A model generated the notes under the pieces. That model was not told the DNA's origin, did not search any database, and was given only the letters and a program-made list of their open reading frames with translations. Source: Heterotrichella gracilis (taxonomy: Eukaryota; Sar; Xanthophyceae; Tribonematales; Xanthonemataceae). From it: 59,581 nucleotides of DNA. Shown piece by piece: positions 373-53,821 of the stretch; position 1 is the stretch's first letter, and each line of letters begins with the position of its first letter. The translations under genes were made by a program, and so were the position numbers. The stretch is taken from assembly GCA_032358255.1 (NCBI GenBank), contig JAULBX010025531.1:1-59581 (forward strand). The letters run 5' to 3'.

Positions 373-2666
373 GCATTGTGTACGGCGTGTACCTTGCGCT
401 GAGCACCTGGGTCCTGTTCTACGTGGCAGCAAAGACAACCTTCTTTGCAGACAGCATCGGCATGTTTGACCTCAACAACAAGTGGAGCCACCAGTACACG
501 TGGTGGGTGGTAATGAATAGAAATTTCCTCTATAAATTCAATTACAGTGTTTGATGCCAATGGGGTTAGGTGCGCAAGCATCTGTTTCACACAAACAAAC
601 AAGGTCTTGAGGACTTGCGTGGCTGCATTCATGTCGAATTCATTCCATGAACGGGGTTGCTATAGAATGTCCATAATAGAAACATGCATTATGGCGACAC
701 AAGCATGGCCATTGTACTGTATCCGTGTGTTTGGAGTGCAAGTTGTTGCCGCCTCTCATCCCAGAAGGTTGCAACTTTCTTTTCTTTAAAAGTTTGTTTT
801 TTAATGTAATGAAGTTGCAACCCACTGGGAGAAAAGGTGGCAACAATTTTGCTCTGCTCGTTGCGGATAGGGCACTGGAGGTTGTTCACAACTGTTGGTC
901 AGCATTGCGATTTTGATTGATAAAAGGTTCCCTCGCCCCTCTCCTCAAAGGTGCAACAACTTCCTGGCTGCCAACTACCCCACCATCAACCCCACGGGCT
1001 CCATCTGCCAGATCCCGCAGTACTCAAACTCCTTTGACTGCCCCTCCAACCCTGTCAACGCCCCCGACGTGGTCACCCAGTGCGCCACCGAGCAGTACTG
1101 GGTGCGCAACTCCATGCTCCGCACGCTCATCTACCTCCAGGTATGTAGCTATATATATGACCACCCATTGGTGCCATCCCTTGCCTCAACGGGCAGCACA
1201 TTAGCCTGTGTCGCACCCTGACTGCACAATGTGAGTCCGTTGTGTTCCCACATGGATCATCACTTCTGGGCGTTTCCTTAAGGAAATTTCTTCCATTTAT
1301 CCCTCCCCTGTGACATTTGGATCATGGGGTTATAACCCTAGTTTGGGTGTATAGTCCTGAGTGCACAACTCAATGCTCTGCGCACTTATCCAGCCGAAGC
1401 ACACCAACCTGGCACGCACAACAAAGGCCATTAAAAAATGTTACAACCCCGTTGCACAGTCATAAGTTCTGTGCCTCCCGGCAATGACCACCAACTGGTT
1501 CGCCCCTTGACCCCAGGTGTCCATCAGCGGCCAGGCGCTGGTGTTTGTGGTGCGCACCATGGGCCTGTCTTGGACGTCGCGCGCAGGGGCGCTCACCTAC
1601 GTGGCCTTCGCCGTCGCCCAAACCCTGGCAACCATCGTGGCCTTCTTTGGCTTCAACGGCTACCCCAACCCCGCCTCCAGCCAGACTGCGGACCCCTGCC
1701 AGTTCTGCACCCTCTCCTCCGGCGGTTTCTCCCCCTTCCTGGGCACCCGCAAGGCGCCCATGGCCAACACTGAGAGTGTTTACATGGATTCCATCATAGG
1801 CTGCACCGCGTATGTGATCGTGGCGTGGATCTGGTCGTTCATCTGGTGAGCTGAAGCTAACGAGTGGTTCCCATTCCATTTGCTGCGCCATGTCAGTCCA
1901 TGCCGTCACATTACATCAATATATGTGTCAATTTGCATATTGCAGATGCCATGATATATTTGATGTCAAGTGGTACATTTACTCTTCAAACTTTGTGCCA
2001 TGGAATATATCATGACAATTTGTGTTCATCACTGGGTTGCATGCCACAGCATGTGTATGCCTGCACACCTGGTGTCGTACTCTCATCCTCCTCACCCCCA
2101 ACCCCCATCGCCAGGCAAATCCCACTCGACTTCATCAAGTGGGGCATGGCGTGGATATTGAACGAGGACGGCTTCCGCCACCGCCCTGCCTTTGAGAAGG
2201 ACGTCACTGCCATCAGGCGCATCAGGAGGGAGTCAATGGTGCCGGAGCCACCCATGGTGCCACAGGTGGGTGTGGTGGGTGTACGGGTGGGGGCATGGAG
2301 GCATCAGCAGATGTCCCTCAGGTGGTTACATGCATTATCTCTGCCAGACGTCCAGGCGTGAATTGCATGCATGGTGCCATTTTACTGCCACGTGGCCGCC
2401 ATTAGGCTCACCAGGAGGGAGTAGGGAGTGCTAGAGCCGCCCTCATCATGAACCCCCAAGCCAAATTTGTTCCTCCCCTGCAGATTGGTCGCGTCAGTTG
2501 GGCCAACCCCCTGGGCCGCGTCAGCATCGCCACCCCTGGCCCCGACGCTCCCCCCGAGCAGCAGCAGGAGCACATGACGCGCATGACGCGCGCATCCATT
2601 GTGCGGGTGTCGGTGACACCGGGGCCGCACTCGCGCACTTCCATCGCGCCAGGCGCACAAGTGTAG
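373..2666 (+). CDS. Plasma-membrane-type H+-ATPase (P3A P-type ATPase), C-terminal part
   Basis: Proton pump that energises the plasma membrane. Only the last five exons are in the window: 373-502, 951-1140, 1517-1845, 2115-2265 and 2484-2666 (stop TAG), about 326 residues with phases that agree at all joins. The segment holds the last four membrane helices: GIVYGVYLALSTWVLFYVAA, then after the luminal loop RTLIYLQVSISGQALVFVVR, then YVAFAVAQTLATIVAFFGF, then TAYVIVAWIWSFIW. PLDFIKWGMAW follows, matching the conserved PLDFIKF border between the last helix and the cytosolic tail in plant and algal pumps. The phosphorylation site and nucleotide domain lie outside the window. The cytosolic tail is short, rich in Arg/Ser/Pro, and ends PGAQV, not in the plant 14-3-3-binding YTV. 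A decayed copy of the end of exon 2115-2265 lies in the following intron. The donor of the first exon (503) was chosen for phase; 500 is possible. Confidence 0.88.
2393..2455 (+). repeat. Echo of H+-ATPase exon end inside the next intron
   Basis: The stretch with CACCAGGAGGGAGTAGGGAG and AGAGCCGCCC repeats the end of exon 2115-2265 (around 2215-2262, CATCAGGAGGGAGTCAATGG and GGAGCCACCC) about 190 bp downstream, in the same orientation. The copy carries an in-frame TAG and no good donor, so it is intronic. Confidence 0.7.
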
Positions 2667-3719: not shown

Positions 3720-6700
3720 ATGGTAGCGCAGGGAACTGTGGACGTCGTGAACGCCAGCATAGCGCCAGAGACTTTCTGGAAGGAGTACATCAGCAGGCGT
3801 CAACCGGTATGGCAATTTGCCATAGAAATGTCTAGCATGCAGACAGATGCAGGTGTCGAGGCGTAAGGCCACCCCTGTTGCAGGTTGTGTTTGATAGCCA
3901 TCTGACCGATGTGGCCTGGCACGCCACAGAACGGTGGTCAGACGAGTACCTGAGAGACAAAGCGGTAAGCAAAATATACACGCAAATATTTGCGCGTGTG
4001 GCTGCACCTGTTTGCATCTCCACTTGCATGCTTTGCTCGCAGTTTATGCATGCATTGCGTAGGCAATGCATGCATATAGGCTGTCGAGACACCGCGACCA
4101 TCCAAGCTCGGTACCTCTCATTAATATAAAGACCGTATATTTTATCCGAACCAGTCCTCGCTGTGGTTGACGGCGACGCAAACTTTTGGCCACCAGCTTT
4201 TCCCGCCATCACCACAACCCGGTTCCCCAGGGCGATGCGCTGCTTGCGGTTGAGCAGCGGGAGGGCTCCGCCGACAGCTTTGGGCGGGGGAAAAAGTTCA
4301 AGCTCACGTTTGCAACGCTCCTCTCCGAGATGGCACGTGGCAATGGCGACCTGTACCTCACAGCGCAGGAGGTGCGCACCCTTATGGAAACCCTAGGGTT
4401 CAAACTGCTATTTCTGGTGCGTAAAAAAACCCATGATATCAGATACACCGTGAGAAGTGCACTAACCTGGCCATCCAAGCAACAGCAGCATCAAGGGGTC
4501 GAGTTGCATCCCTTTACAGCACCATTCTCGGAAATCCGCGTGCGTACAGCAATATCAGTGGATGCGCTGCCGCAAACCTCTCGCGCATGTACGCGCAAAA
4601 CCGTGAGTGCTTGGATATGCCTTGTGGCATGACGCATGCTGCCCTGTAACATGCCATGGTACTCATATCCCCGCAGGTGTAGCGGGAAGGTTGCCCTTCA
4701 CCCCACCTCACCTCACGCACCACCAACTGAAGCTGCATGAGTCTTGCATTTACCCCCAAATTCTGTCCATAGAATGCGAGGTCTTGGGTATCCAAGACCT
4801 CCCATTAATGTTGTGCTGCCCAGGTGCATGGTACGCCATCATGGACTCATCATGGTTCTCATGTTTTACTCAGCATGGCACCAATCCCAGCTAATCTTGC
4901 TTTCAAGCGGCAAAGTATATATATATGTTGTGCTGCCCCGGTGCACGCCATGCCCCGATGCACGACAGGGCAGCATGTGCCCACCCATCATGTGCCCACC
5001 CATGTACTCCCATGCCTGCAGGTGAGGCCCGACCCCGATGGCCACCCTGGTTGGACAGCGCCCCCCGTGACCCAGCTGCAGGACGACCTCCCCTTGGTCC
5101 CCGCGCTGTTCTCCCACCTTGCACTCCACCAGGTCAACCTGTGGGCAGGATGTGCACCAGAAGGTAAGATGCGCCTCTCTTACAGATTTGCATAACCGTT
5201 AACAGAATCCTGATACACACACATGCGCGCGCAGGCCTGCACCAATGTACAAGCACGCATGTATGCCTATTTCAAAGCTTAATGCGAGGGTTTACGGTTC
5301 AGGGTGGTAAATCCGGCCCCTTCATCCTGCAGGCTCCAGCTCTGGCCTGCACCATGTACATACAGTTTGAGCCATGTGCATACAGTGTGAGATCCCAAGG
5401 TCTAGGGTTGTATATCCAACCTCATCTCCACCTGCAGGCTCCAGCTCCGGGCTGCACCACGACTTCCACGACAACCTGTACGTGCTTCTCAGGGGGAGCA
5501 AGAGGTTCCGCATGTACCCGCCGCAGGCCGCACGCAGCATGTACACCCAGGGGGACATACGCAAGGTGCATGAAAACGGGAGGATCGTGTACAAGGGGCA
5601 GGTGCGCAGGAAGGGGGGGCAATGGGTGGATTGGCGGGGTTGTTGCAAACCACTCTATGAAGGTACTCTTTCCAGCTGTTGGGTGTCAGTATACGAGCTA
5701 TGTAAACAGAGCAGAGCATCCCATTCCGTAATCCCCTGGCCATTCTGTATGTTGCTTCAGGGCTGTGTCAAGGCACTTCTGCCTAGAAATCAGGCATGAG
5801 GGTCATCCAGCAACCAAAAATATCCTGTTCCTATTGGTTTGCATCTGTAGCACTGGCGTCCACATGCTGTCCCTGTACCTTGTCGTCACGTAGGCTTAGG
5901 GTTTATCTGTAACAATGGCGTCCATATGCTGTCCCTCGGCAGGGCGACATTGGCGCTGATGGTGTGGAGGCCCAGGAGGCTGCCAGGTGGCGGCGCAAGG
6001 GGGAGGCGCAGGCGGAGCTGGAGGCTGCTGAGAGGGCATTGGAGGCAGGTGAAAAGGTAGGGAAATAAATACATAAGGCCGTGGATTCCTTGGTGAGGAG
6101 CAGGAAATGAGGGACAATTGGGCCAGGCTGGGTACGTCCAATTACTTGCATTCAGTTGCGTTTTGGCTGAGGGGGGCGGTGTAAAGTTGCTTGCTTAGCC
6201 CATGGAATGGTTTGCAACATATTCTTTTAATTGTTGGTGACAACCTGCACATTCTATCAAGGCTTGTTTCCCACTAATAGTTCCTTTTCGTCACTTTCCT
6301 TCCCTTGTTTAGGGTGCCGCCAAGCGGCTGCGTGTGGCTGAGCAGGCCCTTGACAGGGTCCTGGATATGGAGCTGGGGGAAGAAGATGGCGAGGGTGACG
6401 GGGAGGACGAGTTCAAGGACGATTACATGGATAGTGATGAAGAGGGGCCATCAGGTACTGCCCAGAATGTATTTGCTTCATGTTCACTGTAGAAAATGCG
6501 AATGTCTCCACGTCAAGTAGTTTTGGCATGGTGGCCTATTGTCAACAACGCACCTTCAGTGTACGTGAGCAGTCTGCTTTTGGGCACTGTGCGTTCAGCA
6601 ATGTCAAGGTATCTTCCAATCAGGATTACCTCCCTTTAGGGTGTATTTCCCTATAGGCTGCCTTTCCCCAAGGGCTCCCCTTTTACTAACGTCATTGTCA

Positions 6701-8154: not shown

Positions 8155-9289
8155 GGAGGCAAGGAAGCGCAAATATGCTAGCGAGAGCGTAACTAGTTCA
8201 ACTAGTACGATACTCAAGCGGCATATATTACCATTGAGCCTGCCGCAGTGGCACTGCTTTTCAGTACAAGTAGTTGGCTCCTCCCATCACGTCAGCACCG
8301 TGCTAGAGGCTAGGTAGGCCCCAGGGGCACACTGTGATGGCACACTACTCATTGAATTGCTGTGACAGTCGTCGACTACTTGATCAGCTTGAATGGCAAC
8401 GCCGCAACAGTGGTGGTAAGGCCCTTGGCTCAGCCAAACCTTGAAGGAATTGCCAACATGGGCCTGGTGTCAACGTGACCATCCTATTGGTGTGTGCCGA
8501 CACGTGCTGCAGGACCGCGAGTGTGTGTTGTGCCTGGCTGTCTCCTGTGGGTATATTCTTTCTTGGTTGACCGTGTTGGCGGCGGCACTTCAACGTAAAC
8601 ATTTAACACGCATGAAATTGATGGGTGCAAGCCTCAGTTACGACTAAGAATCATAATGATTCTTGGTTGGACTCAGGCTGGCGACCCTCAATTTCATGCT
8701 TGTTGAATGTTGACGTTGATGTATTGCCGCCAATGATACAATGGCTTTGTGACATCGAGTTGGAAGTAATTTATAAAAGGTGTTTGTACAGTTTCCTGTA
8801 GTCGCTACAGCCACTGGCCATTAAGCACAGGATTGCACAGCCGTCACTGCCTCCCCAAAGGCTTCATCAATGCCACTCCGCACTGCCAACATCTGGTCAG
8901 ATAGCAGCTGCCACAAGGTCCTTTTGCAACATCTACTTTGCGGCAATCAATTACTGTCAGGAAGAACATTAACGGAAAATCGGAGATCTCATAATATGCA
9001 TGTACCTCCGGGATCTGCTGCAGTTGCGGGTGGAAGCAGTTGCCAAATCCGAAGCCCTGCAGGCTGATGCAGGTATTATCAACGACATGGCCAGTGCCCC
9101 TTGGTTGGAACCATAGTCACACAGCTACCACCCTTGGTAGCCCACATAACCAACTCCATCCCAAACCCCATCCAACCCCCATTCCTGCACACACCCAGCC
9201 AGAAAAGCGCACATTGCCCAGCGCCGCTCCCTGATGGTTCTCCCACTGTGTGACACCCCATCCCTTCATTCCCATCAGCTTGCATCTCG
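8155..9289. other. Convergent spacer between JmjC and SF3B4 genes
   Basis: The genes on both sides point into this region, so it holds both 3' UTRs. It contains the long foldback at 8576-8733. No other gene or element was recognised. Confidence 0.6.
8576..8733. repeat. Long imperfect foldback, about 79-bp arms
   Basis: The left arm (8576-8654) and right arm (8656-8733) are near reverse complements around a single base at 8655. The tip is AAGAATCAT against ATGATTCTT. Further out, CATGAAATTGA pairs with TCAATTTCATG, and the outer ends TTGGCGGC and GCCGCCAA pair. Mismatches and small bulges occur along the arms. It lies about 420 bp downstream of the JmjC stop, probably in or near its 3' UTR. 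It could be a MITE-like foldback element or the precursor of a small RNA; sequence alone does not decide. Confidence 0.85.
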
Positions 9290-12200
9290 CTACCTTGGCG
9301 GGGGTAGCGTGGGTGGGCGGAACTGCGGCGGGGGCGGCGGTGGCGGGCCCTGGTACCCCCCCGGTGCCGGTGGGGGCATGCCGGGGTAGCCCCCTTGCTG
9401 CGGTGGTGGGGGGCCGCCATAGCCCCCAGGCCCCGGTGGGGGTGGGGGTCCCCCTTGATACCCCCCTGGTGGTCCCCCCTGGTACCCGGGTGGGGGTGCA
9501 CCATACCCTGGTGGAGGTGGCCCCCCGTAGCCTCCTGGGCCGGGCGGGGGTGGGGGTCCGCCGTAGCCCCCAGGTGCGGGTGGTGGTGGGCCCCCCTGGT
9601 AGGGGCCCTGTGGGGGCATGCCGGGGTAGCCCTGCTGCATGGGTGGTGGGTAGCCGTGCATGGGTGGGGCCATGCCGGGCCGGGGAGGGGGCTGCGCACC
9701 CCATGGTGGGGGCTGCTGGAACCCTTGCTGGGCTGGTGGGGGGGGTGGGGGGGCTCCCCACGGCATGGGGGCGGCTCCCGGGGGTGGTGGGGGTGGGGCG
9801 CCGTGACCGGGTGGTGGCTGCATGTAGCCGTTGCCCATGGGGGGTGCGGGGGGGGGCATGGGGGCACCGGCAGCAAAGCCTGAGGCTGCGTTGATTGGCT
9901 GGTTGGGTGCTGGGGACTCCTGGGGCGTTTGCTTGGGGCCTGCGGGGAGGGGGGGTGGGCGTAAGACACCCATGCACCCAAGACCGCGGCAGCATCTGGA
10001 ATATGGTGTCAATTGCTAAATAAAGTTTGAAGGCTAAAATATCATCCCTGTGAAAAAAATCTTAATGGCATATCCGACGCACCCCCGACACCCCAACGAA
10101 ACCAAAAAAACTCAAAACAGGCAATCGCCACCTCCCAGCCAAGCAGCGAGTGCACCCCAGTGCACAACAGCATGTGCGGCCTGTTGCGAACAGCGTGTGT
10201 GGCCTGTTCTGCTGCGCCTGCTGTGCCTTCCAAGGAAACCCTAAAACCCTAAAACCTAAACCCTACACCCTAAACCGCACCTGTCGCGAACAGGGTGTGC
10301 GGCCTGTTCTGCTGCGCCTGCTGGGCCCGCTGCTGCGCCGCAAGCAGCCTTTCCGCCGGGGTGCCGTGCCGCTCCCCCTTGGTATCCTTCTTGAACGCAT
10401 AGCCCACTGACACCGCTCGATTGCACAGAAACTGGCCCCCCATGGCCTCGATGGCGGCGTCGCTGGCCTCGAAGCAGTCGTAGCTCACAAACCCGAATCC
10501 CCGGGATGCGCCCGTGTCTGGGTCGCGCATGATCTTGGGCGTGGCCACGATCACTCCAAACGCGCTGAAGGTGTCGTAGAGCAGCTGCGGGTGGGGGTTG
10601 GGGGGGGGGGATTGAGTGGGGGGATGATTCCGGGTGTTGTGGTATGGCGGCGTGCTGTGTGGTGACAGGTGGGGCGTCGTGCCGCAGCTTTGCAGGGTGT
10701 GGTGACAGGTGTGTGCCATGGCATGGGTATGCACAGAGGCGGCACAGCACTTCACCATGGCCGTGCTTTAAACCCTGAGTGCCCCCCCTCCCTGCACTGT
10801 CATCGGCAGGCAGCATCCCACCAGGCACCCCCAACCCCACCCACCCATACCTTTTCGTCCATAATCTTGTGCGCATGCAATAATAGGTATTGTTATCACA
10901 ATACCACTTCTAGGTCTAGAGTGCTTATATCCAGGTTGGACGACTTCTTGCCTCTTGCCCTCCCACCACCCACTTCAAGATACACCAACCCCTTCCACAC
11001 ATCGTTGCTACCAGCATCACCCACCACCATCCAATCCCCAGCACCAACCACCCTCTCCATACCCACACACACTTCACCATCACCCACCCACCTTTTAGTC
11101 CACCTCTGGGTCCAGCTTGCCCAGAACTAGGTTGGCGCCCACGTCCTGAGACTGCTTGCCCCTCTCACCACCCACTTCATGATCCCACCCACATCCACTC
11201 CCCAGCACCATCCACCCACCCACCCACCACCCACCTTTTCGTCCACCTCTGGGTCCAGGTTCCCTATGAACAGGTTGGCGCCCACGTCCTGAGACTTCTT
11301 GTCCTGGGAGGCCTTGTTCACGCGAATGGGCTTGCCATACACCTTGATCATGTTCAGGATCTTAATGGCCTGGGAACGGGGAAGGGTTCAAGGGTTAGGG
11401 TCTGGGGCGTGTGGCAAGGGCTGCTACGAGGATAGGCTTGGCAAAGTTGGCGCCGCCTATGCAAGGCTGGCTGGTAACTGCCTGGCTGCCTTGCTAGAAT
11501 GCAAGTAAATAACTAACACGTCTGCGCGGGTGGCAAAGAAAGTTTGTGTATGTGGAATGCAAGCAGCTAACGCCCCTATCCTAAACCCAATGTGCAGCCA
11601 CGCAAGTGTGTGCTTGTGTGTGCTTACATAGTCTGCGTCGTCCTCTGACCGGAACTCCACAAAGCCGTAGCCCTGGTGGATGTTGGTGACCCGGTCCTTG
11701 GGCAGGTACACGTTCACTGCGCGCACACGCACAGGCAGGGAGTCAACAGCAGGGGCTGGGAGAGCAACCGCAAGCATGCACCACGCAGTAGTGGTGCACG
11801 CACGGTGGACGCACTATTGCCACCTCACTAACACCAGCAGCGTAAGTGCATTCTCCATAAGACCGGCAGCTGTGTAGCGGCATCTGGGCACGTGCAACAT
11901 GCAACCCCAACCCACACCAGGACCCCGCAAGGTCAACCCATGGCGCAAGCAGCACCAGGATAGGACTGCTAGCGTTGCATGCGCAAGGCCGCCTGCTAAT
12001 CTGGCTGTATTGCAAGGTTGCATTGACCTAAGTGCAGACCTAGCACTAGCGGCAGCGGCAGCGGCGGCACTCACCCACTGGCCCCGCCTGCACAAACAGC
12101 TCCCACACCAGCTCCTCTGACATCTGCACGTGAGGGAATAAGGGTGTAGGGCGGGGTGGGATGCGTCAGCTTGCAAGCCTGAAGCGAACTGTGCATGCGG

Positions 12201-13358: not shown

Positions 13359-15247
13359 ATGAGTAGCCCGCGGCCATGGACCCAACCACACTGGTTCAAA
13401 CTGGGCCTGTCAGTCGTGGGCCTGACGTCGTCCCTCATGGTCTACTCCGTCGCCCAAGAGCGCCTGATGACGGTGGGCTTTGGCCGCAAGCAGCAGGTCT
13501 TCACCAGCACGCTGTTCCTGGTGCTGTGCAACAGGCTGACGTCGATCGTGGCTGCCCTGGCGATGCTGCTGTGCACCAAAAAGCAGCTGCGCCCGGTGGC
13601 CCCCCTGTCAGCCTATGTCCGCATCAGCATCTCCAACCTGGTGGCCACCACTACCCAGTATGAGGCACTCAAGTACGTGTTGTTATCAGGAAACACCTGG
13701 CAAGCACTCAACCCACTGCGCCCTGCACCCACCTACCCTGCACCCTGCACCCCCACACCCACCAAGCCCTGCACCCACCCACTCTGCACCCCACCCCGCG
13801 CTGCAACCACCCAACATGACGTCCATCCAACTTGGCAGGCGCCCTGCACCCACCCAATACCCACTCTGAAACCTACCCGCTCCACACGCGCCCTACCCTC
13901 CCACCCCCACACACACCCTATACCAACGCCCCTCCTGCACCCTGCACCCCCAACACACACATCCTGCACCCCACCCCACCCCACCCACACCCCACACCCT
14001 ACCCACACCCCACACCCCGCACCAACGCCTCCCCTGCCTCCCAGGTACGTCTCCTTCCCCCTTGCCACCATGTCCAAGTCCACAAAGACCATCCCCGTGC
14101 TGGCCATTGGCAGCCTGTTCCACAAAAAGCGCTACAGCTACAAAGACTACTCTGTGGGAGTAGCGGTGTCAGTGGGCTGCGCGGCCTTTGTCCTCACCGG
14201 CAGCACCCGCGCCCCACACAGCAGCTCAGCGGACGGGATCGCGGCTGGCTACGGGGTTTTGCTGCTGCTGACTTACCTTGCGGCTGACGGGTTGACGTCT
14301 ACCAACCAGGACGCGCTGTTTGTGAAGTATGGGCTGGAGGTGGCTGAGCTGGTGCTGTATACAAGCCTAGTATCGGCGCTGCTGTGCCTGGCTGCACTAG
14401 TCTTGACAGGTACGGAAGGATGATGATATCAACAATAACAGATAAATGTGTGCGCGGGAGGGATGCGTCCACCAACAGTGCAACACACCATGCATTCCTG
14501 CCCGTACTCGCTGCTGCCAGGACTGAACTGCCTGGCGCTGCCCGTGCAAGTCCATCAGCTACTATGGCATTACCTGCTATTGCTGGAATGCTGACCGTTG
14601 AACTCTTCTGTATGTGACAGGTCAGCTGTTTGTTGCGCTGGTGTTTGTCGCTGACCACCCCTCGGTGTGGGTGTGGATAGCCACCGTGTCGGCAGCCTCG
14701 GCCACCGTGCAGTTCCTTTCCTCCTACACGGTGAAGCAGCAGGGGGCGTTTGTGTTTGCCCTGGTGATGACCACGCGCCAGCTGCTGTCCATCCTGGTGT
14801 CCTACATCTACTTCCAGCACCCGCTGAGCGGGGGCCAAGGGTGAGTGGCGAGATGGGTGGAACCCTAGTTTAGGGGGTTGGGCATGCAGTGTGCAGCGCC
14901 AACGCTGTATTTCCAAGACAAGGCTGAGGCATTGCTGGAATAATAATCTAGGCGGATTGATGCGTCGCAGGGATCGGGGATTAAATGTTGTCCTGATCGG
15001 GTGTATGTGGCTGTTTGGGCCAGCGCGCGTCTGTGTAGGGGCGTTCAACCATTAATGTGTGACCTTTTGCAGGTTTGGTCTCGGGGTTGTGTTTGCTGCC
15101 CTCTACTTCAAGACCCTGCTGCAGCTTGGCAAGCAAGCATACATGCACCTGAACGGGAAGAATGCTGCCAGTGAAGGTACCGCGTCACACCCTGACCTAG
15201 GGTGTTGTTACAGCCGGCACAGGGTCCTTGCAATGCCTATAGTATGA
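13359..15247 (+). CDS. SLC35B/UTR5-like nucleotide-sugar (or PAPS) transporter
   Basis: Multi-pass Golgi or ER antiporter of the drug/metabolite transporter superfamily, 357 residues. Exons: 13359-13672, 14045-14409, 14621-14840, 15073-15247. Family motifs are visible: FKLGLSVVGLTSSLMVYSVA in helix 1, then TTQYEALKYVSFPLATMSKS with the KSTKTIPV signature, DGLTSTNQDALF, VKQQGAFVFALVMTTRQLLS and SYIYFQHPLSGGQGFG. This layout matches the plant UDP-Gal/UDP-Glc transporter 5 group and its SLC35B2/B3 (PAPS) relatives; substrate cannot be chosen from sequence. The last exon may read through to TGA at 15245-15247, as modelled, or splice at 15177 (GTACCG) to an unrecognised exon. A decayed copy of the last exon end follows at 15271-15345. 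Intron 1 is extremely C/A-rich. Confidence 0.85.
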
Positions 15248-16654
15248 GCAGTGTATCACCTCCAAATCTGCTGCATTTTCAAGACCCTGCTGCACCTGGA
15301 AGAGGCAGCATACATGCACTTGAACGGGAAGGCTGTGGTACCGCTGCAGGACCTGACGTGTGCATGCGGTGGTTCCAACTGCTGTCCCTGTGCATCGCAG
15401 GGTCGCAGGGGGATGCATACAGGGTGTGAGTGCTGCAATCTAGCTGGCGCAGCACAGCGGCTAGATATGTGTATAAAACAGACAGCATGTGCGAAGGCCG
15501 CGCAGGCTGGCAAGGTGTTGCAGGTGGTGCTCTGCCGATAGATTTTGCCTATTCTTCATTCAGTTTTGCTTTGGTTCCTGCATTACAAATATAGTGCCTA
15601 CCTTTCTTATTTATCTGGTCTGCAAGACGATGCCTGACCACTTTTTTACTCTTACTGTTGGGAGTGAGTGCCCCGCATAGGATGATTACCCTAAAACCCT
15701 TAAGTAGATCGATACTCGGTTCGATTTTGCTTCGTAGTTGTTTGTTGAGCCTGTTCTGTGAGCGTGATCTGATGTCTTCAAGCGTAGAGGCGTGTCGCCT
15801 GGTTGCAGTGGAGGCGACCTGACCTGATAGTGGATGCCCCATTGCCCACCATCCGCAAACCTATAAGTCCAATGCCATGGGTGGGGTCTTGCCCTTGTTG
15901 GTGTTGTCAATCGCAGGGAGTTGTAAAGATCAGCCTTTTCATGCCATGCCTGCGTGCCCACCAATGGCGCAATTTGTTTGAACACAAGGTTTACTTGGGT
16001 GCCCCAACTCGACGTGTGTGTACGCCCGAGTAAATGCACAACATGCCACATATTATGGCCCCAAGGAGGGGACATATCTCTGGTGATGCATAAACCTGGC
16101 GGCCAGTGGCTACCAGTATTGTAGCGTGACACTGTGTGCAACGCTTGGCGGCGTGGGATGCCTTAGGTTTTCTTATGAAAACGTGCAAGCTTACATTAAG
16201 CACGTCACGGCCTTTGCAGTGATATTGCCTGCCATAAATTTCCCATTTTCAACAGTGGGCAGCCCGCAAGTAAAAATGGCAACGCAGGTCGGGATGTTGA
16301 TGGGCATAAAACCCTACCCAGCACAGCACAACTAAAAATAACTTCCTTTTTTTCTAGGTACCTGCACCTGTTGAGTGTACAAAGGCGAGGGAATAGTTCA
16401 TTCAAGGAAAATCTTAAACGGAGCAAGTGAAATATCAGCTAGGGACTACCAGCCCACTTTCACTCAACACTTGCCACTCCTCGAAACTGGCTGTAACTGT
16501 GGCACCGTATGATGCATGCATGCATGTGAGCCTTCTCCGCAAGCGGTGTCAAAGCTTGGCAAGTTGAAAACCACGTGTTCGCTGTCATATGCACCGAAGT
16601 ATACATTGCGTCAACGCCTGACCCCGCGGGCGCCTGCCAGCTGACAGGCAGGCA
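15248..16654. other. Spacer with exon echo, otherwise no gene recognised
   Basis: Apart from the echo of the transporter's last exon at 15271-15345 and a CCCTAAAACCCTTAAG telomere-like patch near 15688-15705, no coding exon was recognised. It should hold the transporter 3' UTR and the SEH1 promoter. Confidence 0.5.
15271..15345 (+). repeat. Downstream echo of transporter exon 4 end
   Basis: TTCAAGACCCTGCTGCACCT and TACATGCACTTGAACGGGAA copy TTCAAGACCCTGCTGCAGCT and TACATGCACCTGAACGGGAA of the last exon (15108-15160), about 190 bp downstream and in the same direction. It includes a GTACC match to the candidate donor at 15177. It encodes FKTLLHLEEAAYMHLNGK against FKTLLQLGKQAYMHLNGK. Confidence 0.9.
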
Positions 16655-18278
16655 ATGTACTCCACCAGCCATCCCTTGTTGGGCAGTGCACCTGCAACCA
16701 CCGTGGGCTACGACCACTACAGGCAAAGGATAGCCAGTGCACGCGACGAACAGCTATCGGTGCACGTTCAAGACAGCCAAGGCGATGCCTGGAAGTTGCA
16801 AAGCACTTGGGCAGCCCCTCATCACCATGCTGTAACGAAGGCAAGTGCTGGAAGCCCCCAAACCCTCACTAGCTTGAGGACTGTTTTAAAAGTGTACGCA
16901 TGGGTATCTTCTAAAAGTCCTGTACTTGTTGGATTCCTTGTTACTGGGCAAATGCATGCGTTGCGTTATGCGATGGCATATTACTTGGTACGATATGCAT
17001 GCACATGTATTTTGCACAGCTAGCCCTTTGTCACACAGCCACGCATACGCAAGTCCTTCTGTTCTCAAGTACAGCAAAATTAAAACAATTTACTTTCCTT
17101 TCCCCCTGCAGATAGCGTGGTCCCACCCCGAGTTTGGGCACACCGTTGCTTCTGGGTCAGCCGATGGCTCGGTGTGCGTGTGGGAGGAGTCGCCCGCGGG
17201 CAAGTGGCAGCTGGTGGCAGAGCTGAGGGACGGGAAGCAACGCATTGTGGGGCTGGAGTTTGCACCCAGGCAGCTGCAGCTGCTCCTCGCTGCAGCGGGG
17301 TCAGACGGGGCTGTGAGGTACAGCGCATTGATCGCCAGCCCATTGGACCGAACATCGTGCTGATTATGCATCAATCCCAGTTCCAACCCAAGTTTTTGCA
17401 TTGCCAAGTGTTGGCCAGAAACTTAGAGCACCGCTGGATTGGCGCAGGGTGTATGAAGGGGGCCTTGCTGCCGACAAAGGGAGTGGCAAGCGATGGACCA
17501 TAGTGCAGCAGCTGCAAGTCCAACCAAACTGTACAGCCCTGCACTGGCGGCCCTACACGCGAGGCCTGCCCCCCATGATGGTGGTTGGCACCAGCTCAGG
17601 CGCAGAGGTGTACACCTTCAAGGCCACATGGGGCACGTGGGAGCTCGCAGCGCGGCTGCCAGGGCAAGGACCCGTGGCAGACGTGGCGTGGGCGACCACG
17701 TTACAAAAGCCGGTGGAGACGATTGCAGTGGCGCATGGGACGTGCGTCACGCTGTATGCTGTGCGAGGTCCAGCAAACGACCTGCAGGTGAGCGGCACAC
17801 CATTGCATGTCCTGGGACGTGCACTTGCAGCCATCTTGCACCTGGTCCAGCTGTACTTTGCCATTGCACACCATCGCATTGGGCCCACATGCACTGATTT
17901 GCCTGTTTTGAAACGCACACAGTAGTTCCAACTCGCGCAAAATACACCGCTGGAGACCACGTGGCAGGTGCAGCCATGTGGCACCAGCTGTGTACCTTGC
18001 CATGCACGCCAGAAACCCACATGGCATGGCATGTACCCACAAGACATTGCGCTGATTTCGCCTGCCATTGCACGCAGGTTTCACAAATCACGCAGTTACA
18101 GCATCCATCGCCCGTATGCGGGCTGGCGTGGAACGTATTTGGCATGCTGCTGGCTGCTAGCCTGACCAGCGGGGCTGTGCGGCTGTGGAGGGCCAACTTG
18201 GCTGGGGAGTGGCAAGAGGAGCTGACGATGCTGGGCTGCGCGCCACCACAGGACGACGCCTTTGACATGGTTGACTGA
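16655..18278 (+). CDS. SEH1: Nucleoporin SEH1, WD40 protein
   Basis: Beta-propeller subunit of the Nup107-160 (Y) complex and of the SEA/GATOR complex. Exons: 16655-16840, 17112-17317, 17448-17787, 18078-18278; 310 residues, slightly shorter than animal SEH1. Recognised by IAWSHPEFGHTVASGSADGS and VCVWEE (the SEH1 WAHPEFG signature), then GLEFAP, VQPNCTALHWRP, PVADVAWAT and SPVCGLAWNVFGMLLAASLT followed by GAVRLWRAN. Intron 1 uses a GC donor (GAAG|GCAAGT at 16841) instead of GT. The first exon gives a weak first blade; the start is the first ATG of that frame. The gene converges with the SPC3 gene, the stops being only 295 bp apart. Confidence 0.92.
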
Positions 18279-18572: not shown

Positions 18573-19542
18573 TCAATGCGTGTGATAATTAAGGTCCAGG
18601 TCCCTACCTGTGAAATTTTGTCGATGGGTCGTTAGCGCACCTACAAAAAAAATCACCTGTCAGCAGGGGATTGAGAGGAAATTACAGCACATGGAAGAAC
18701 TGCAATGAGTTTCTCCTTACCAACTTTGGGCATGACATTCCACACCACGCTGACGTTGAAGTCCAGGCCTCGCAAGTTTGTGCCTTGGTCAATGAAGTTG
18801 AACGGGAATTCTAGCTGCAAGGGTTTAACTTCTACATCTGCTTCTTTCTGTAATACAAAGGCACGTCAGTGACGCTGGTGGCCACGATCAGGGCAAGGAA
18901 GCCACTACTGGTGGTCAATATCATGGCTAGAATGCGCTGTGCTGTCCCACCACCCACGCACCTGGCTAAGGATGATCTGGTTCCATATGACCTGTTGGTT
19001 GAGTTGGTTTTTCTTTGTTTCATAGACCACCTCAACATAGAGGAAGATCTGCTTTGTGTTCCACGTAAACACTGACCGCAGGTCCGCATCTAGGTCCAAC
19101 GAGAGCCATGCCTGCAGTAGGGGAGGCACCCATGTCAGCATCCTGGCAAGCACGTTGTTTGAAGACCCCCGTTGCTTGAGACGAACTGGGATCTTGCCTG
19201 CTCGTTGTTCCTTTGTCGTTGTAGGCCCTCTACTTGCAGGTTGGTGACAGTGACTTGTGGGTCTGATGAGTGCACAAAGTCTGCAAGAAAATAGCAGCTG
19301 TTACACAGGTGTGAAAGCACAGCACAACACAACTCGCCCTGTTATGCTCGATCATCGAAATTGCGATGAAAGCAGTACCCGCTTGCTGGACTACAGTCCC
19401 AGGATAGCGTGCAAAGGCGGGCAATGCATGCATATGCGCCCAGTACATGCGCACCTGTCAACGTGGCCAGCACACAGATACCAGCCAGCACGGTGCTTGA
19501 AAAAGTCAACAGTGCGTTGATCCGATACCAAAACGAATGCAT
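18573..19542 (-). CDS. SPC3: Signal peptidase complex subunit 3 (SPC22/23, SPCS3)
   Basis: ER membrane glycoprotein subunit of the signal peptidase complex. Exons on the minus strand: 19542-19455, 19280-19198, 19111-18962, 18847-18721, 18640-18573; 171 residues, the usual size. The N-terminus MHSFWYRINALLTFSSTVLA and GICVLATL form the single membrane anchor. The luminal part has LDLDADLRSVFTWNTKQIFL followed by YVEVVYETKKNQLNQQVIWN, which match the conserved ITFDITADL, FDWNVKQLFLYL and NNALNQVVLWD blocks. The end is LDFNVSVVWNVMPKVG and a short tail. Intron 2 has a GC donor (GAGCAG|GCAAGA, donor at 19197). The tail after MPKVGA is less conserved, so the last exon is the least certain. Confidence 0.9.
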
Positions 19543-24397: not shown

Positions 24398-24429
<32 letters not shown>

Positions 24430-35344: not shown

Positions 35345-35404
35345 CCCTGTGCAGACCCCAGCCGCACTATCTGCGCCTGCGTTCTGCAGCATCCTTGCCT
35401 CCAC
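35345..35404 (+). repeat. Distal upstream echo of LON-gene exon start
   Basis: CCCTGTGCAG, then AGCCGCACTATCTGCGCCTG and ATCCTTGCCTCCACC, copy the acceptor and first codons of exon 35582 (CCCTGTGCAG, AGCCGCGCTATGTGCGCCTG, ATCCTGTCTTCCACC). The copied acceptor is intact. Confidence 0.85.
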
Positions 35405-35454
35405 CTACGCCCACATCTAAGTCTAGTCAAGGGATAATTTACACGTGCGCACTG

Positions 35455-35520
35455 CATGAGGTTATAACTCGTGCACTGCGCAGTGCACAAGCCGCGCTAC
35501 TGTGCTCCTGTTCCACTAAT
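35455..35520 (+). repeat. Proximal upstream echo of LON-gene exon start
   Basis: GCGCAGTGCACAAGCCGCGC followed by CTCCTGTTCC copies GTGCAGTGCACGAGCCGCGC and CGCCTGTTCC of exon 35582, 99 bp upstream. Similarity reaches into the intron side (AGGTTATAACTCG against AGGTTATTAC and GACTCG), so the duplicated unit spanned the intron-exon border. Confidence 0.9.
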
Positions 35521-35581
35521 CCCTGGACCCCACCCTAAACCCTAACATAGGTTATTACATTATGACTCGCACCCTGTGCAG

Positions 35582-37937
35582 TGCACGAGCCGCGCTATGT
35601 GCGCCTGTTCCGTGACATCCTGTCTTCCACCCCGCCAGACAGCGACCCAAAATTCCTGCACGTGATGAGCGCAAGGGGCCCCAAGGGGGGAATGCTGCAG
35701 GATACGGTGGAGGGGATGGCGCGCATAGGGTAAGGGACCAGAACCCTGCCTTGGACAATGCACGTTAAGTGCATTGGCCGTATCACCGTGCATGCGTGGT
35801 CGTAGTGTGGGCACACACACAGCTTGCATGGTCTGCTGAATCGCACCCCACTTGGCTCCCCAGGTGCGTTGCCACCGTGAAGAAGGTGCAGCACTTCCCA
35901 GGGGAGGTGCTGGAGGTGGAGTACGAGGGGAGGAGGAGGTTCAGGGTGGTGGATGCAGGCGCGGCGCAGGGGCAACCCTACCTGGTGCGCTAAGGGTGTA
36001 GGGGTGTGGGGTTCATGGTGGTGGATGTTGGCGGGGGATAGGGTCCTTGCAGGGGAAGCCGTACCTGTTGGGATGCCGTGGAGACCCATATACCCTTGAA
36101 AATGTGAAGTGTAGTTCTGCTTGCTCTACTCTACCGAGGCCAGCTCACATGGCACAGCTCACATGGTCCACATGGTGTATATTACACATGCAAGATTGTG
36201 CTTTATTGTTAGTTCTCCTGTGTCTCCAATCTCTGTTCAGGATTGACGCCCCCCAGTGCTGTCGCTTGCTGTGGTTCAACCCCTGCTGGCCCCCCCGCAT
36301 TCCCACTCTCCTTGTGGCGGGCTCTAATCACCATTATGTCATTTTATGGGTATTGCTGCCTCCCTTGCAGACCTGCCTGGGTGAGTGGTACGATGACAGC
36401 CAATCGGTGCGCGTGGATGATCTGGAGCGCCAGGTGTACTCATCACTCAAGCGCCTGCTGCAGCTCACACAGGCGCTGAGTGGGGGCAGGGGGCAGGTGC
36501 CCTGGCTGCCGGCAGCAGTGCAAAAGTGAGCGAACAGGGGGAGGGAGGGGATGTTGGACAGCGGGGGGAGGGCACTCGTCTTGACGTGTCAACTATCAGA
36601 GCTTGCATGGCCCTTATGGCTCGCTGCCAGTTTCTGCTGGAGGATTTTGCCCAATGTTGTGGATGGGCCTTGTGTTGCAAAGCACGTGACACCATCAGCA
36701 AGTATATCATTACAGGAGCCATCACTGACGGCATCAGAGGGAAATCATGCATTGGGGTTCTGTGCTGCTCTTGCATGCATATCTAGGAGTGTCAGTAATC
36801 TGCAGGAATACCAAACCGCTGCAGGCTTATCATAATGTTCGTACCCACACACCAAACCTCTCCCCCCCCCTCAACCCCTCCTTCTCCCTCCCCTTTCCAG
36901 GCACGCCCCTCCCCCCCCTGCCGCCCCCTCGCTGGCGGACTCCCTGAGTGCAAGCGGGCTGAGAGCGGGCCACGACATATCCACCTGGCGGCGCGCGGGG
37001 AGTGTGTATGGGGGCCAGGAGGGGAGGGGGCCGCAGGGGGCGGGTGACCCGTACCAGGTAGGGGCAGTGGACTGGAAGGCAATGCCTTGATCTTGGCTAC
37101 CTCTAGGGTCAGAGTTTAAGATTTAGGGTTGTATACCCATGCTTGTATAACCCAGCGCGCCTGTTCCATGACTGGGAGAGTGACTTTTACCGCCCGATTT
37201 TTTATTAATATTGTATTGAGGTCATCGCCATCAGCATCGGCATGGGCAGCAGCACAGGAAGGAATGCTTGAAAATGTCACCCCCTTTGACTGGTCATAAA
37301 TTGTGGCCATTGGGGCGCCATCCTGATCGCCCATCATCCTCTCGCCTGGCGCAGGTTGCGAGCGAGGCTGTTGGCAAGTCTCAGCGCCAGGAGCTGTTTT
37401 CCTTTGCCGCTGCCGCCATGGTGGATCTGCCGCCCGCACACAGGCTGGCACTCATGCAGTGCAGGGAGACGGGGGAGAGGCTGGAGGTGAGGGACAGGGG
37501 TGTAGGGTGTAGGGTATGCGGCATGAGCACAACTTGCTTGCTCTGTTGGTTGGTTGTTTAGCCCAATGGAAGTTACCTGCTTTGTAATCAGGCTAGAGTA
37601 TATTTTTTTGAGTTCAAGTGCATTTGTTGACAGTGTAGGTCAAACTGACCTAGCGTGCCACATATGGTCAAATATGCGACCAGAGTCTGATCAGGCCTAG
37701 TATATGCTGATGTATTCTGACGGACCCTTTGCACGGAGTATTGTGTTGCAAACAGCCCACAGCTACATGCTGTGTCCTCACTACATGTTCCATGTGTCTA
37801 CCCCCTGCACACCCCTCACCATGGCACGCATGACCCCCTTCCACCCATTCCTGCAGTTTGTCCAGTCTGCTGTTGGACCCTACATCAGGGAACTGGAGGC
37901 AAAGCTGGCGCTGAAGAGGGCTGTGGGCACAAGCTAG
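35582..37937 (+). CDS. LON substrate-binding (LON N-terminal) domain protein, 5' end unresolved
   Basis: Exons found: 35582-35729, 35864-35984, 36371-36525, 36901-37057, 37355-37486, 37857-37937 (stop TAG); about 264 residues, phases consistent. HEPRYVRLFRDIL matches the conserved HIFEPRYRxMxxDxL of LON domains. GMARIGCVATVKKVQHFPGE and VEYEGRRRFRVV are the following beta strands, and GEWYDDSQSVRVDD matches the usual VExxxD region. After a low-complexity Pro/Gly linker come SFAAAAMVDLPPAHRLALMQ and the helical end. No protease or AAA module is present, so it is an accessory LON-domain protein, as seen in plant plastids and in cereblon relatives. The exon with the first strands was not found. 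Reading through 35985 gives a stop at once, which supports the donor there. Confidence 0.75.
36014..36072 (+). repeat. Downstream echo of LON-gene exon 35864-35984
   Basis: TGGTGGTGGATGTTGGCGGG and TGCAGGGGAAGCCGTACCTG repeat GGTGGTGGATGCAGGCGCGG and CGCAGGGGCAACCCTACCTG at the end of the exon, about 65-75 bp on, including the CTG|GT donor position. Confidence 0.8.
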
Positions 37938-40010: not shown

Positions 40011-42040
40011 GCGCCCGCGAAGCTTTTCTCAACGCATTTGCGTTCAAGGCCTCCCACCATGGTGCCCGACGTGTGAAGCTCCTCTCATCTCACCACCGCA
40101 CTGCGGGGCTTGGCCAGGGCTTCACCTGGGGCCGTTCGATGCCTGGCCAGTGCTTCTTCTGCGGGTACTCTGGTCACCTGGTGCAGCACCCCATCGTGCT
40201 CCCACCCATCGCACGAGTGGTACTGCGGCCCACCCCCGAAGCTGCGACCCAACCACGGTGCAGCGAGGCTGCAGCAGCTTCCACCCAAGCTTCAGCAGCA
40301 GTCTTGACCCCAGCCGTCCAGGAGGCCCAAGTTGCCACCTCTTCAAATGAGGTGCACCAGCAGAGGACGGCTGGCACCCAAGGTGTGTTTGGTCTCATTT
40401 GAGACCAGTGCATTGCACTTGTGCTGGTGTTTTCCCTGTGATGCCTAGCACCTTCAAAGGTTGAATTTACCCCGTGATTTACGTGCTGACAGCCACTGTT
40501 TCCACTGTGCAGGGTCCCCAGCCGAGCCAGTCGATGAGGGCGCACACAGGAAGGGTGCTGAGATGCTCTGCTTGGAAGCAGGGCACCAGCAGCTGAGGCC
40601 TCCTAGGAGCAGCACCGCAGGTGGGTTGCGCGCACATGCATGGGCGTACACACTAGTACTGGTCTCTTTACCTTTGTGCCTTGTGATACTTGTGACGTCT
40701 ATGGAGTGTCCCGGTAACAACCCTGATGCTTTCCTGACACCTGCTGGCTCTTTTGCAGGGTGGGGCATGCCAGTTGATGAGGGTGCGGAGCAGATCCATC
40801 TGGACGCACAGCAGGTGCAGCACCAGCAGCAGAGGAGGGCCTCAGAATGTAGGTTTTAGCGCACACACTTGGTTTTGTTGCCTGGTCAGAGGGCATTGTG
40901 ACGCCCAGTACCACCCACTGATGTGGTTCTAACTACTGCTGTGGTTGTGCAGGCTGCCGCAGGATGCGGATGCTCCTCACGAGGGATGTGCCGCCAGTGC
41001 CCCGGGTGTGCATCAGGAGGGAGGCCGAGCCAGTGGCGCAAGGTGCGCAGGAATGACAGGTCTCCTGTTTTGCTGCCACGACTCCTTGCCATCCTTATTT
41101 GCCCAATTTGCCAGCCAGTGTGTTTAGGGTTTTAGGGTTTTGCAGCCGCTGTGGCGCAGCAGTGCTTTTGTTGCTAGGTTTTTTGCCCTGCATGCACCAT
41201 TCCTTGCGCGGTGTTCTGATACCCTGTTTCACATCCTGTGCAGCCCCGGCTGGCCCCATTGTGGCCCTGTCCTGTGCAGTCCCGGCTGGCCCCATCGCTG
41301 CGCAGAGGCTCGCAGCGGCGGCCCTCTACACCTGGATTAAGAACCAGGAAGCGAGCTCCTGGGCAGCTGCCTTCAGCATCAACAACAAGCTCCCTTCCCT
41401 CATTGAGGATCTCTCACGCCAAGCGCAGCAGCACCCAGTCATGACCATCAGTGCCTGGGGGAAGGGCGTGCACATGGGACAGAGCGCGCAAAAGCGCATG
41501 AAGCTGGGCCCCATGGATGTGACATGGCTCAGGTAGGGGTAGTATTGGACAGGAGAGCAACTCCCTTGCATTTGCGTAACGCTGCTTCCTCAACCAACGC
41601 GCCTATTCAAATTGAGTTTGTGGAGTATTTTACTGGTTATACATATATATTTCTTTGGCATGCCGCAGGACGCTCTCATTCGGGCAACAGCTGGAGTCTG
41701 CGGTAATGCAGCGGGTGGTGCAGGGCAGCCTGCTGATGCAAGTGGCAGCACCAACCGCCGTCCCCTTCATCCACATGGCTCACATCAGGCAACTGGATGA
41801 GAAGATTGGCATGGCCGCCTATTGGGTGGTATGGCGCGTGCACGTGCAGGTAGTGGACAAAGTGGACGGAAAAGCCTTGCTCTTTGCTCACTCCTCTTTG
41901 CCTTGTGGCATCCTGCGTCAGCAACCAAGTGCAAATGGCATCCATGGTGGTGTTTGCTGATGGGCTGGTGCTGAGCATGCACATGGAGGTCTTCCACCGG
42001 GAAGATACCCTCTGGAGGTGCGAAACGTTCTGTGTAGCTT
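40011..42040 (+). pseudogene. Kinase-locus copy 1: N-terminal region plus degenerate kinase N-lobe
   Basis: Likely exons: 40011-40382, 40513-40620, 40759-40848, 40953-41042, 41244-41532, 41669-41849; phases agree through these. They encode a Ser/Ala/Pro-rich start with FFCGYSGH, two related PVDEGA segments, a PAGPIVA repeat, and a helical module (ASSWAAAFSINNKLPSLIED, LGPMDVTWLR). A kinase start follows, but the glycine loop reads IGMAAYWVVW where copy 2 has VGEGGYGVVW. The next exon, which should carry the ATP-binding Lys, is about 180 bp shorter than in copy 2, and the remaining FADGLVLSMHMEVF segment is in the wrong phase. So copy 1 cannot make a kinase. The exons before 41042 could still splice into copy 2, making one gene with an extra module. 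Confidence 0.6.
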
Positions 42041-42190: not shown

Positions 42191-43882
42191 GATGCGGGTG
42201 CCCCTCAGGGTCCAAGGCGTGCCCCAGGCGTGCATCAGCAGGGAGGCAGCGCCAGTGGCGCAAGGTACGCAGGCCTGACCGGTCCCCTGTTCTCCTTGCC
42301 ATTCTGCTTGCCATTCGTTTTCTGCCTGCATGCCTGTTAAGGATTTAGGCTTTAGGGTTTTGCAGTGCCACAGCAGAGTTTCTGTTGCTGGGTGTTTTGC
42401 CCAGCATACACCATTCCTTGTGCGGTGTTCTGATCCCCTGTTTCACATCCTGTGCAGTCCCGGCTGGCCCCATTGTGGCCCCATCTTCTGAAGTCCCGAC
42501 TGGCCCTATTTTGGCCCCATCCATTGAAGTCCCGACTGGGCCCATTGTGGCCCCATCCTGTGAAGACCCGGCTGGCCCCATCGTTGCGCAGAGGCTCCCA
42601 GCTGCAGCCTTCTTTGCATGGCTCAAGAACCCTGAAGCCAGCCCCTGGGCGCCATCAACCATCACCGACAACATCCTCTCTCAGATCCCTGCCGTCATCG
42701 AGGAGCTCTCCCTCCAAGCCCACCATCACCCAGCCGTGCTCATCAATGCCCAGTGTCAGCGCATACAGAGGGTGGGGATGGGACCCACGGACGTGACCTG
42801 GCTCAGGTAGGGAGAGCATTGGACAGGAGAGCAATGCCCTTGTACCTGCTATCTTGACTTCCTGTGGCGCGTCTGTTGAAGGACAGGTTGCATTGTAGTG
42901 TACTGTTCATTTTCCGATTTCTAGTATGGCCCACAACTGGGTTGCGTAGTATGTAACTGTTTATTCACCTATTTGTTTGGCGTGCCGCAGGACGTCCTCA
43001 ATCGGGCTCCAGCTGGATATGGTGGTGATGCAGCGGGTGGTGCTGGGAAGCCTGCTTGTGCGACTGGCAGTACCAATCCCTTACATCTACATGTCAGACA
43101 TCGAGGAAATGCACGCCAAGGTTGGCGAGGGCGGCTACGGGGTTGTCTGGCATGTACAGGTATGAAAATATTGGATGGGAAAGCACTCAGTGCCTTCCCT
43201 TCTCTTTGCTCACTTCTCTTTGCCCAGTGGCAGCGTAACTAATTACTTGATGGATTCTCCCTCGTGCAGGTGGAGGGTTGGGACCATCCACTTGCCCTCA
43301 AGCCCTTCAAGGGCCCAAATGCAACGGGCAATCCAGCGGATGCGCTGCGCGAGGCCGTTTGTATGGCGATGTATGCCGGCTGCCACAACCTCATCCAACT
43401 GGAGGCCATCGCGGTGTCAGAGGATGGGCTGATGCTGGGCCTGGTCATGGAGCTGTTCCCGCTCTCGGGGGACAGGCTCTGGAGGTGCGACATGCCCTTG
43501 TTAGCCTGATGCTGCATGTGATTAAATCAGTCAACTCAATCAAATTTGTCCACAAATCATTGGGCAGTTGATTGTGAATTTGAAGCTCCCCACCCCTACC
43601 ACCCCTGCTCAGCCCCTGACAGTGCATATGCGTGTGCCTGTGCAGCGAGTGCTTGGAGCCTTTGCCCAAGGGACCTCTGCAGCGGTTGCAGAACATGGTG
43701 TATTTTGCGGGCTACCTGGGCACCGCTGTGGGGGAGATGCATGATGGGGGCATGGTCCACCTCGACCTCAAGCCAGCCAACGTTTTGTGGCGCATGAAGC
43801 AAGGCCGGCCCTCCCTGGTCATTTCTGATCTGGGCGGCGCAAGGCTGGTGGAAGACAATGGGATGGCGCAACTGTTCATGTA
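42191..43882 (+). CDS. Kinase-locus copy 2: protein kinase-like, C-lobe missing
   Basis: Likely exons: 42191-42264, 42458-42806, 42991-43159, 43270-43484, 43646-43882. The first exons parallel copy 1 (ACISREAAPVAQ, PAGPIVAP repeats, ASPWAPSTITDNILSQIPAV, MGPTDVTWLR). The kinase part keeps the glycine loop VGEGGYGVVW, the Lys in LALKPF, the helix-C Glu in REAVCMAMY, the hinge LVMELF, the catalytic loop HLDLKPANVLW and DLGG in place of DFG. The frame then meets ATG TAA at 43878-43883, at a strong GTAAGT donor. No activation segment, APE motif or C-lobe was found in the next kilobase. The protein may therefore end early, or the remaining exons may be lost or unrecognised. The true 5' end may be in copy 1. 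Confidence 0.65.
42458..42590 (+). repeat. Four 36-bp units coding for a 12-residue repeat
   Basis: Units read VPAGPIVAPSSE, VPTGPILAPSIE, VPTGPIVAPSCE and DPAGPIVAQRL. Copy 1 has only two units (41244-41310). Each unit starts where the acceptor CCTGTGCAG of the first unit lies; in the inner units of copy 2 the acceptor-like bases have become TCTGAAG, ATTGAAG and TGTGAAG. The repeat therefore appears to be a multiplied exon edge that became coding. Confidence 0.85.

Positions 43883-45090: not shown

Positions 45091-53821
<8,731 letters not shown>

Follow-up and report, generated by a model that had tools for sequence, protein, structure and literature searches.

Excerpts of published work describe several systems that are close to the one reported here. 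In primates, rodents and the horse, interstitial telomeric sequences are telomere repeats inserted in one step at double-strand breaks, and at a few horse loci the insertion is accompanied by a direct target duplication, which was interpreted as a staggered break (PMC7215372). The excerpt of that study gives deletion as the commonest change, and the human intron share of 31% was deemed compatible with random insertion. Small tandem duplications arise in human and mouse cells when breaks with 3′ overhangs are filled in by CST-guided Pol alpha-primase (PMC8355091). A tandem duplication in a potato RdRp gene spans an intron–exon boundary together with its splice site, and an 83-bp duplication lies within the first intron (PMC4974935). 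Duplication has been treated more generally as a source of introns (PMC3443670, citing Gao and Lynch, 2009 and Hellsten, 2011). The telo boxes of land plants are short AAACCCTA units scattered in genes, for which an origin by telomerase plus recombination has been proposed (PMC3022908).

As in interstitial telomeric insertions, the genome analyzed here carries its own telomere repeat inside chromosomes, with target duplication detectable at a minority of the intronic tracts (38 of 110). The excerpted study had duplication at a few loci, whereas here copies of 21-88 bases flank that share of the tracts and introns carry tracts at 5-8 times the intergenic density. The parallel with CST is that stretches of tens of bases are duplicated when long overhangs are filled in, and CST is also telomere machinery; its products are tandem and telomeric filler is not mentioned in the excerpt of PMC8355091, whereas here filler lies between the copies. 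The potato excerpt concerns one gene, a tandem duplication and a new intron, whereas here many genes are involved, the copies mostly enclose filler, and introns mainly lengthen. Introns born by duplication, as excerpted, likewise obtain their splice sites from local gene duplication, but in-register border pairs are rare here. Telo boxes are enriched in 5′ UTRs and slightly under expectation in rice introns according to the excerpt of PMC3022908, which does not mention flanking duplications, whereas the units found here are concentrated in introns and their tracts can be flanked by copies. The preliminary description of this DNA held that no named description of the pattern existed, which was too strong given the published border-crossing duplication in potato. 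No telomere-filled intron duplications were found in the literature surveyed by titles and abstract openings, in which subscription journals are thinly covered. Telomeric insertion at breaks, fill-in duplication, border-crossing duplication and duplication as an intron source are known separately; what looks new is their union in one widespread process, confined to gene bodies, by which splice borders are copied, and with it the scale, the intron bias and the border copying.

Copies of exon edges within introns

The window, the whole stretch of DNA that was analyzed, comprises positions 1-59581 of contig C303 in a 68.5-Mb assembly of 903 contigs. The sequence has the character of a nuclear genome of plant type, perhaps that of a green alga. 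From its sequence we built by hand a curated set of 65 introns in eleven genes (66 with one added LON intron). When the exons are joined, the curated chains form a single open frame with two exceptions, one past a terminal stop and one without the LON intron. Two of the 65 are GC-AG introns (16841-17111 and 19112-19197). Pfam searches with ten window pieces supported Cupin_8, RRM, UAA transporter, SET, SPC22, WD40 and AAA assignments, and gave no match for the pieces labelled H+-ATPase and LON, both of which are labels by reading. We take the AAA gene to be NVL, the RRM gene to be SF3B4 and the Cupin_8 gene to be of JmjC type, names assigned by reading.

A self-trained gene finder recovered 62 of the 66 curated introns exactly, as measured on its own training window. 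The sample consists of 20 10-kb stretches of the same genome, with 218 predicted introns and 436 edges. Two stretches without predicted introns, L001 (G000:C1:5001-15000) and L013 (G000:C180:5001-15000), are from bacterial contigs in the assembly; they have a GC content of 0.36-0.38 and dense long ORFs, including one for a GroEL-like protein, and C1 is 894 kb long. These contigs are presumably from Bacteroidota. Both stretches were excluded from array counts, spacers, young pairs, tract-flank tests and 7-mer coverage, and were still counted as intergenic for the unit-placement ratio, the rarity of inverted matches and the 400-base gene-flank counts. Stretches L002-L020 sit 5-15 kb from contig starts and have a pair rate about 2.6 times that of the interior subset, which is defined as the window plus L021-L025.

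For each intron, the 80-nt exon edge was aligned against the remainder of its own intron, and a score of at least 28 was taken as an echo; non-cognate introns, the reverse complement and wrong-side placement served as controls. In the window, decayed same-strand copies were found for 12 of 130 edges (nine exon ends and three exon starts), each within the intron of that edge, compared with 0.27 expected from non-cognate introns, and there were no inverted copies and one wrong-side copy among 106. The sample gave 66 of 436 edges against 1.6 expected, with four inverted copies and 9 of 304 on the wrong side; exon edges set against other introns gave 0.80 and 0.78 expected matches at score 28 (218 introns). 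Ungapped direct matches in the window number 91 at offsets of 20-400, compared with 0-10 at five far-offset sets. The exon-edge echoes in the window and the sampled genome are thus confirmed as a real observation (Table 1).

Offsets of the 68 echoes from window and sample with a score of at least 34 range from 43 to 289, with 66 at or below 225. Identity in the window runs from 76/77 in the NVL pair down to about 78%, and the exon parts of echoes have a median identity of 85% (44 cases). Among echoes with homology reaching the border, GT is retained in 15 of 19 and AG in 11 of 15 (26 of 34 together). Beyond the border, homology continues at about 60% identity, versus 25%, on average to 50-60 nt (34 echoes). 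A search of the genome itself with three query stretches yielded no useful empty allelic or paralogous site or second haplotype.

The preliminary description had counted at least fifteen echoes in the window; the 12 curated cases and three outside that set (35345/35572, 35462/35560 and 10180/10280) bring our own count to about fifteen. Its account of their geometry, with all copies in the orientation of the exon, exon starts copied upstream and exon ends downstream, agrees with the inverted and wrong-side counts above, and its interpretation as local direct duplication across borders is supported. Neither the non-cognate nor the inverted controls had a comparable rate. The ages form a continuous range, as proposed under continuous production and decay, and the suggested decoy sites are retained as GT and AG. 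An echo assigned to a kinase locus was not recovered. What we found there was a 36-base tandem repeat at 42446-42587; this and a similar repeat at 41231-41292 contain exon-start sequence with AG and lie, by reading, inside a kinase-like coding exon.

Table 1. Echoes, their source borders and associated telomere-type tracts in the window.
Feature	Position	Strand	Support
Exon end of first gene, echo source	2209-2253	+	36/46 to 2398-2442
Echo in following intron (2266-2483)	2398-2442	+	edge alignment to 2209-2253
Exon-start echo with AG in intron 5164-5437, Cupin_8 (JmjC-type) gene	5326-5354	+	edge alignment, Pfam
Further partial copy, Cupin_8 gene intron	5234-5251	+	17/18 to 5344-5360
Telomere-type 7-mer between Cupin_8 gene copies	5403-5409	+	
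Functional 3′ splice site and exon start, Cupin_8 gene	5431-5459	+	27/29 to 5326-5354
Intron-internal pair 5844-5874 / 5906-5936 with tract 5896-5905 between	5844-5936	+	28/31
Echo of RRM-gene exon end; intron outside curated set	10180-10227	-	44/48
Telomere-repeat filler AAACCCTAAAACCCTAAAACC..., RRM gene	10236-10276	-	
Functional exon end (by reading), RRM gene	10280-10327	-	
Echo of exon end 11227-11294, donor GTGGGTGG	11084-11151	-	63/69
Echo of exon end 15117-15160, UAA-transporter gene	15288-15331	+	38/45; Pfam UAA
Echo of exon end 21214-21262, with GGGGTAAG, SET gene	21403-21450	+	40/49; Pfam SET
Echo of exon end 25767-25842, with donor	25982-26057	+	70/76
LON-labelled gene: echo 35462-35514, telomere tract 35532-35545, exon start 35560-35611	35462-35611	+	45/53
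LON-labelled gene, further copy	35345-35405	+	
AAA gene: exon end 47916-47937, telomere tract 47963-47976, echo 48008-48029	47916-48029	+	20/22
AAA gene: echo 49125-49152 of exon start 49168-49195, in 43-base tandem array	49125-49195	+	25/28
AAA gene: exon end 49963-50014, tract 50005-50047, echo 50057-50107	49963-50107	+	44/52
AAA gene: exon end 51620-51653, echo 51705-51738	51620-51738	+	30/34
AAA gene, youngest of the window: echo 51963-52039, exon start 52121-52197	51963-52197	+	76/77
AAA gene filler with telomere-type units	52047-52118	+	between 51963-52039 and 52121-52197
Copy-tract-copy sites	5326-5459, 5844-5936, 10180-10327, 35462-35611, 47916-48029, 49963-50094, 51963-52197		

Placement and filler of the duplications

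Splice borders are not markedly preferred. Intron-internal tiles of 80 bases have a local match in 13% of cases versus 9% for borders in the window, and in 19% versus 15% in the sample. The border-to-internal pair ratio is 1.07, where random unit placement expects 1.10, or 1.85 when corrected for intron growth. A border-specific mechanism was rejected, as border and intron-internal rates roughly fit random placement.

The distribution between introns and intergenic DNA is uneven. At offsets of 60-220 we counted 59 border, 22 intron-internal, 3 exon, 2 intergenic and 2 other arrays, with mixed arrays entered as border; the opportunity was 64 kb for borders, 35 kb for introns and 80 kb for intergenic DNA. 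Arrays are about 25 times less frequent in intergenic than in intronic DNA (p = 5e-10), and the interior subset has 14 border, 3 intron and no intergenic arrays. Within 400 bases of genes, a range that should include UTRs, one pair at an offset above 60 was found in 42.8 kb. Because inverted matches are about equally rare everywhere, the intergenic deficit does not come from chance matching. Gene-body CpG methylation was considered as a cause of the gene bias and appears too weak, with an observed/expected CpG ratio of 0.44 for introns and 0.53 for near-gene intergenic DNA. The rate also varies strongly among the 27 10-kb stretches (chi-square/df of 4.6): duplicate pairs reach 19-45 per 10 kb of intron in L006, L008, L017, L018 and L019 and are absent from L003, L022, L024 and L025.

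Contigs C70 and C140 have TTTAGGG arrays at their ends, and we therefore take this to be the genome's own telomere repeat. The genome has 5,629 matches to two units, counting overlapping ones and those at contig ends, compared with 5 for the reversed pattern. Coverage by the telomere 7-mer is 0.0334 in introns, 0.0045 in exons and 0.0069 in intergenic DNA. Young pairs were defined as ungapped, with identity of at least 0.92, at least 24 bases and an offset above 40; some overlap and a few are minisatellites. None of the 33 young pairs is head-to-tail, 29 enclose a filler of 6-200 bases, and a TTTAGGG unit is present in 17 of these 29 (11 of 22 after removal of overlaps and telomere-like copies). 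A few young spacers (L018, L019) are themselves minisatellite arrays. The clearest case is in L007 (6724-6926), where identical copies (65/65) surround a 72-base filler with telomere units; by reading, each copy has the AG and exon start of a minus-strand gene. Head-to-tail status is mixed among older pairs, and short tandem arrays do occur. Over all spacers, 43 of 85 contain a telomere 7-mer, compared with 17.8 expected and a maximum of 29 in 500 draws, and the 7-mer is richer in spacers than in flanks of the same introns (n = 83, p = 5e-4). Fillers with telomere units are commoner in younger pairs (22 of 40 at identity of at least 0.88, 15 of 43 below). Neither this filler nor the near absence from intergenic DNA had been part of the preliminary description.

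The association was also examined from the side of the tracts, using intronic tracts of at least 14 bases with telomere-like 7-mers masked at up to one mismatch. The copies that flank the 38 of 110 tracts are all direct, and no tract is flanked by inverted copies; the corresponding rates are 6.9% for random intron positions, 20% when the random positions are drawn from the tract-bearing introns themselves, and 7-10% around six other motifs. Of the intergenic tracts, 3 of 14 are flanked, versus 0.7%. The effect is present in the interior subset (6 of 21 versus 2.5%, p = 1e-5) and in L002-L020 (32 of 89 versus 8.7%). In the window, 14 of 71 tracts are flanked by copies at a score of at least 26, a count without its own random control. 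Of 50 flanked tracts of at least 10 bases, 17 directly adjoin the nearer copy (a gap of 0) and 31 lie within 6 bases of it, and in the AAA gene the tract at 50005-50047 begins at the second base of the intron. Just outside the copies, telomere units reach 0.103, compared with 0.033 in the average intron.

Possible origins of the duplications

We propose, with a probability of about 0.6, that the echoes are repair products of staggered DNA breaks in gene bodies, which were filled in and joined with captured filler. Two strand breaks about 20-90 bases apart would produce a break with long overhangs, and fill-in of both overhangs would place the inter-break stretch on both ends. Extra sequence may then be caught between the ends before they are joined, giving the order copy, filler, copy. 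For roughly half of the young cases, the captured filler would include telomere repeats, (TTTAGGG)n, of either orientation. Where the copied stretch extends over a splice border, one intact border would stay beside each exon, so that the event would be tolerated and the intron would grow by copy plus filler, with the spare border copy landing in the intron and decaying there. The strand order expected from telomerase extension (G-rich by the left copy, C-rich by the right) is absent, with counts of 12:12 and 12:12, which suits capture of telomeric fragments or cDNA better than direct extension. On the coding strand, intronic tracts of at least 10 bases in window and sample show a strand bias, with 95 C-rich and 45 G-rich. 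Against the proposed repair route, about half of the young fillers are without a telomere unit, as is the 126-base filler of the SET gene (25843-25968), for which the genome search gave no second match. About half of the tests show homology extending beyond the border, so some events were tandem or turned into arrays. A transposon or introner family seems an unlikely source, since exon edges find no counterpart in other introns (counts above) and the SET filler found none elsewhere in the genome.

Ordinary short tandem duplication, which we consider unlikely, would also resemble an echo where it crosses a border and one copy is selected while the other decays, and faster decay of the intron parts of both copies could make them look spaced. 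It would account for the continuation of homology into the intron (26 of 47 spacers homologous at p<0.05), for a border-to-internal ratio that fits random placement and for the rarity of wrong-side copies. Young pairs have had little time for such decay, however, and at offsets above 40 they are not head-to-tail; the roughly 25-fold scarcity in intergenic DNA and the telomere filler between copies also argue against it, and plain tandem duplication as the main form was rejected on the young pairs. A second possibility, which appears quite improbable, reverses the order of events: telomere-like intron tracts, being G-rich and fragile and stalling replication or transcription, would come first and provoke template switching that duplicates their surroundings. 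Tracts and duplications do share introns, with 5.5 telomere units per kb in the 62 introns with a border echo and 2.0 in the 300 without, and the pair rate per 10-kb stretch tracks telomere-motif density (Spearman 0.66). The flanking of 20% of random positions in tract-bearing introns, which are rich in duplications, and the enrichment of units outside the copies leave room for such an origin. Simple switching, though, should repeat the tract too or put a tandem copy before it, and no other tract is found near the 10180/10280 and 49963/50057 pairs, nor in the 24 and 34 bases beside the L007 copies, although L007 does have another tract at 6616-6638.

It is very unlikely that the copies are genuine alternative or tandem exons retained in mRNA, although the gene finder calls some young echoes exons, exon–echo mismatches are most frequent at codon position 3 (0.229, versus 0.126 and 0.088 at the others; 46 cases), and gaps are few (32 columns in 2,043 aligned exon positions). 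Silent-site evolution of the true exon would explain part of the excess at position 3, and the homology runs into the intron. Moreover, in the lysyl-tRNA synthetase gene of L019 the gene model reads one segment twice, whereas the solved homologue 9jkl_A has one copy and aligns once; of the ELANAFTEL segment, the first copy alone aligns to it. The SAICAR synthetase gene of L008 matches solved homologues. A gene-finder or assembly artefact seems extremely improbable: the models are home-made and two sampled contigs are bacterial, but the effect holds in the hand-built window introns and without the bacterial contigs, and the 5-25% divergence between most copies is not expected from assembly error.

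Taken as a whole, the interpretation in the preliminary description is supported for duplication across borders, decay and intron growth, and is not supported for two of its parts: the border as a focus, given the ratio of 1.07 against 1.10-1.85 expected from random placement, and plain tandem duplication as the main form, given the 0 of 33 young pairs found head-to-tail.

Intron growth and intron birth

Introns with a border echo have a median length of 316, compared with 256 for those without (62 versus 300 introns), in line with the lengthening that had been suggested. Intron birth would be marked by in-register copies at both borders, which occur at a score of at least 14 in 3 of 360 introns, versus 0.25. 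Intron birth as the main outcome was rejected on these few in-register cases and is at most a minor route. On the minus strand of L017, a predicted 318-base intron (8431-8749) has an in-register direct repeat of 20/21 (ACGTGCAG/GTGCTGCTC) over both borders, and is a candidate for intron birth by duplication.

A broader reading, possible but doubtful in our estimate, is that gene-body-directed repair capturing telomeric sequence is what mainly drives intron growth in this lineage, and at times intron birth. Much intron sequence would then be layered debris of copies and filler, with borders constantly duplicated and shed as decoys, and the process would be tied to spliced gene bodies and not to the genome as a whole. 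Intron growth and decoy splice sites are poorly understood, and cases caught in the act are few. This one genome seems to offer an age series of border duplications, in which the telomere filler may be the signature of a repair route. If this is true, telomeric sequence would serve as patching material within genes.
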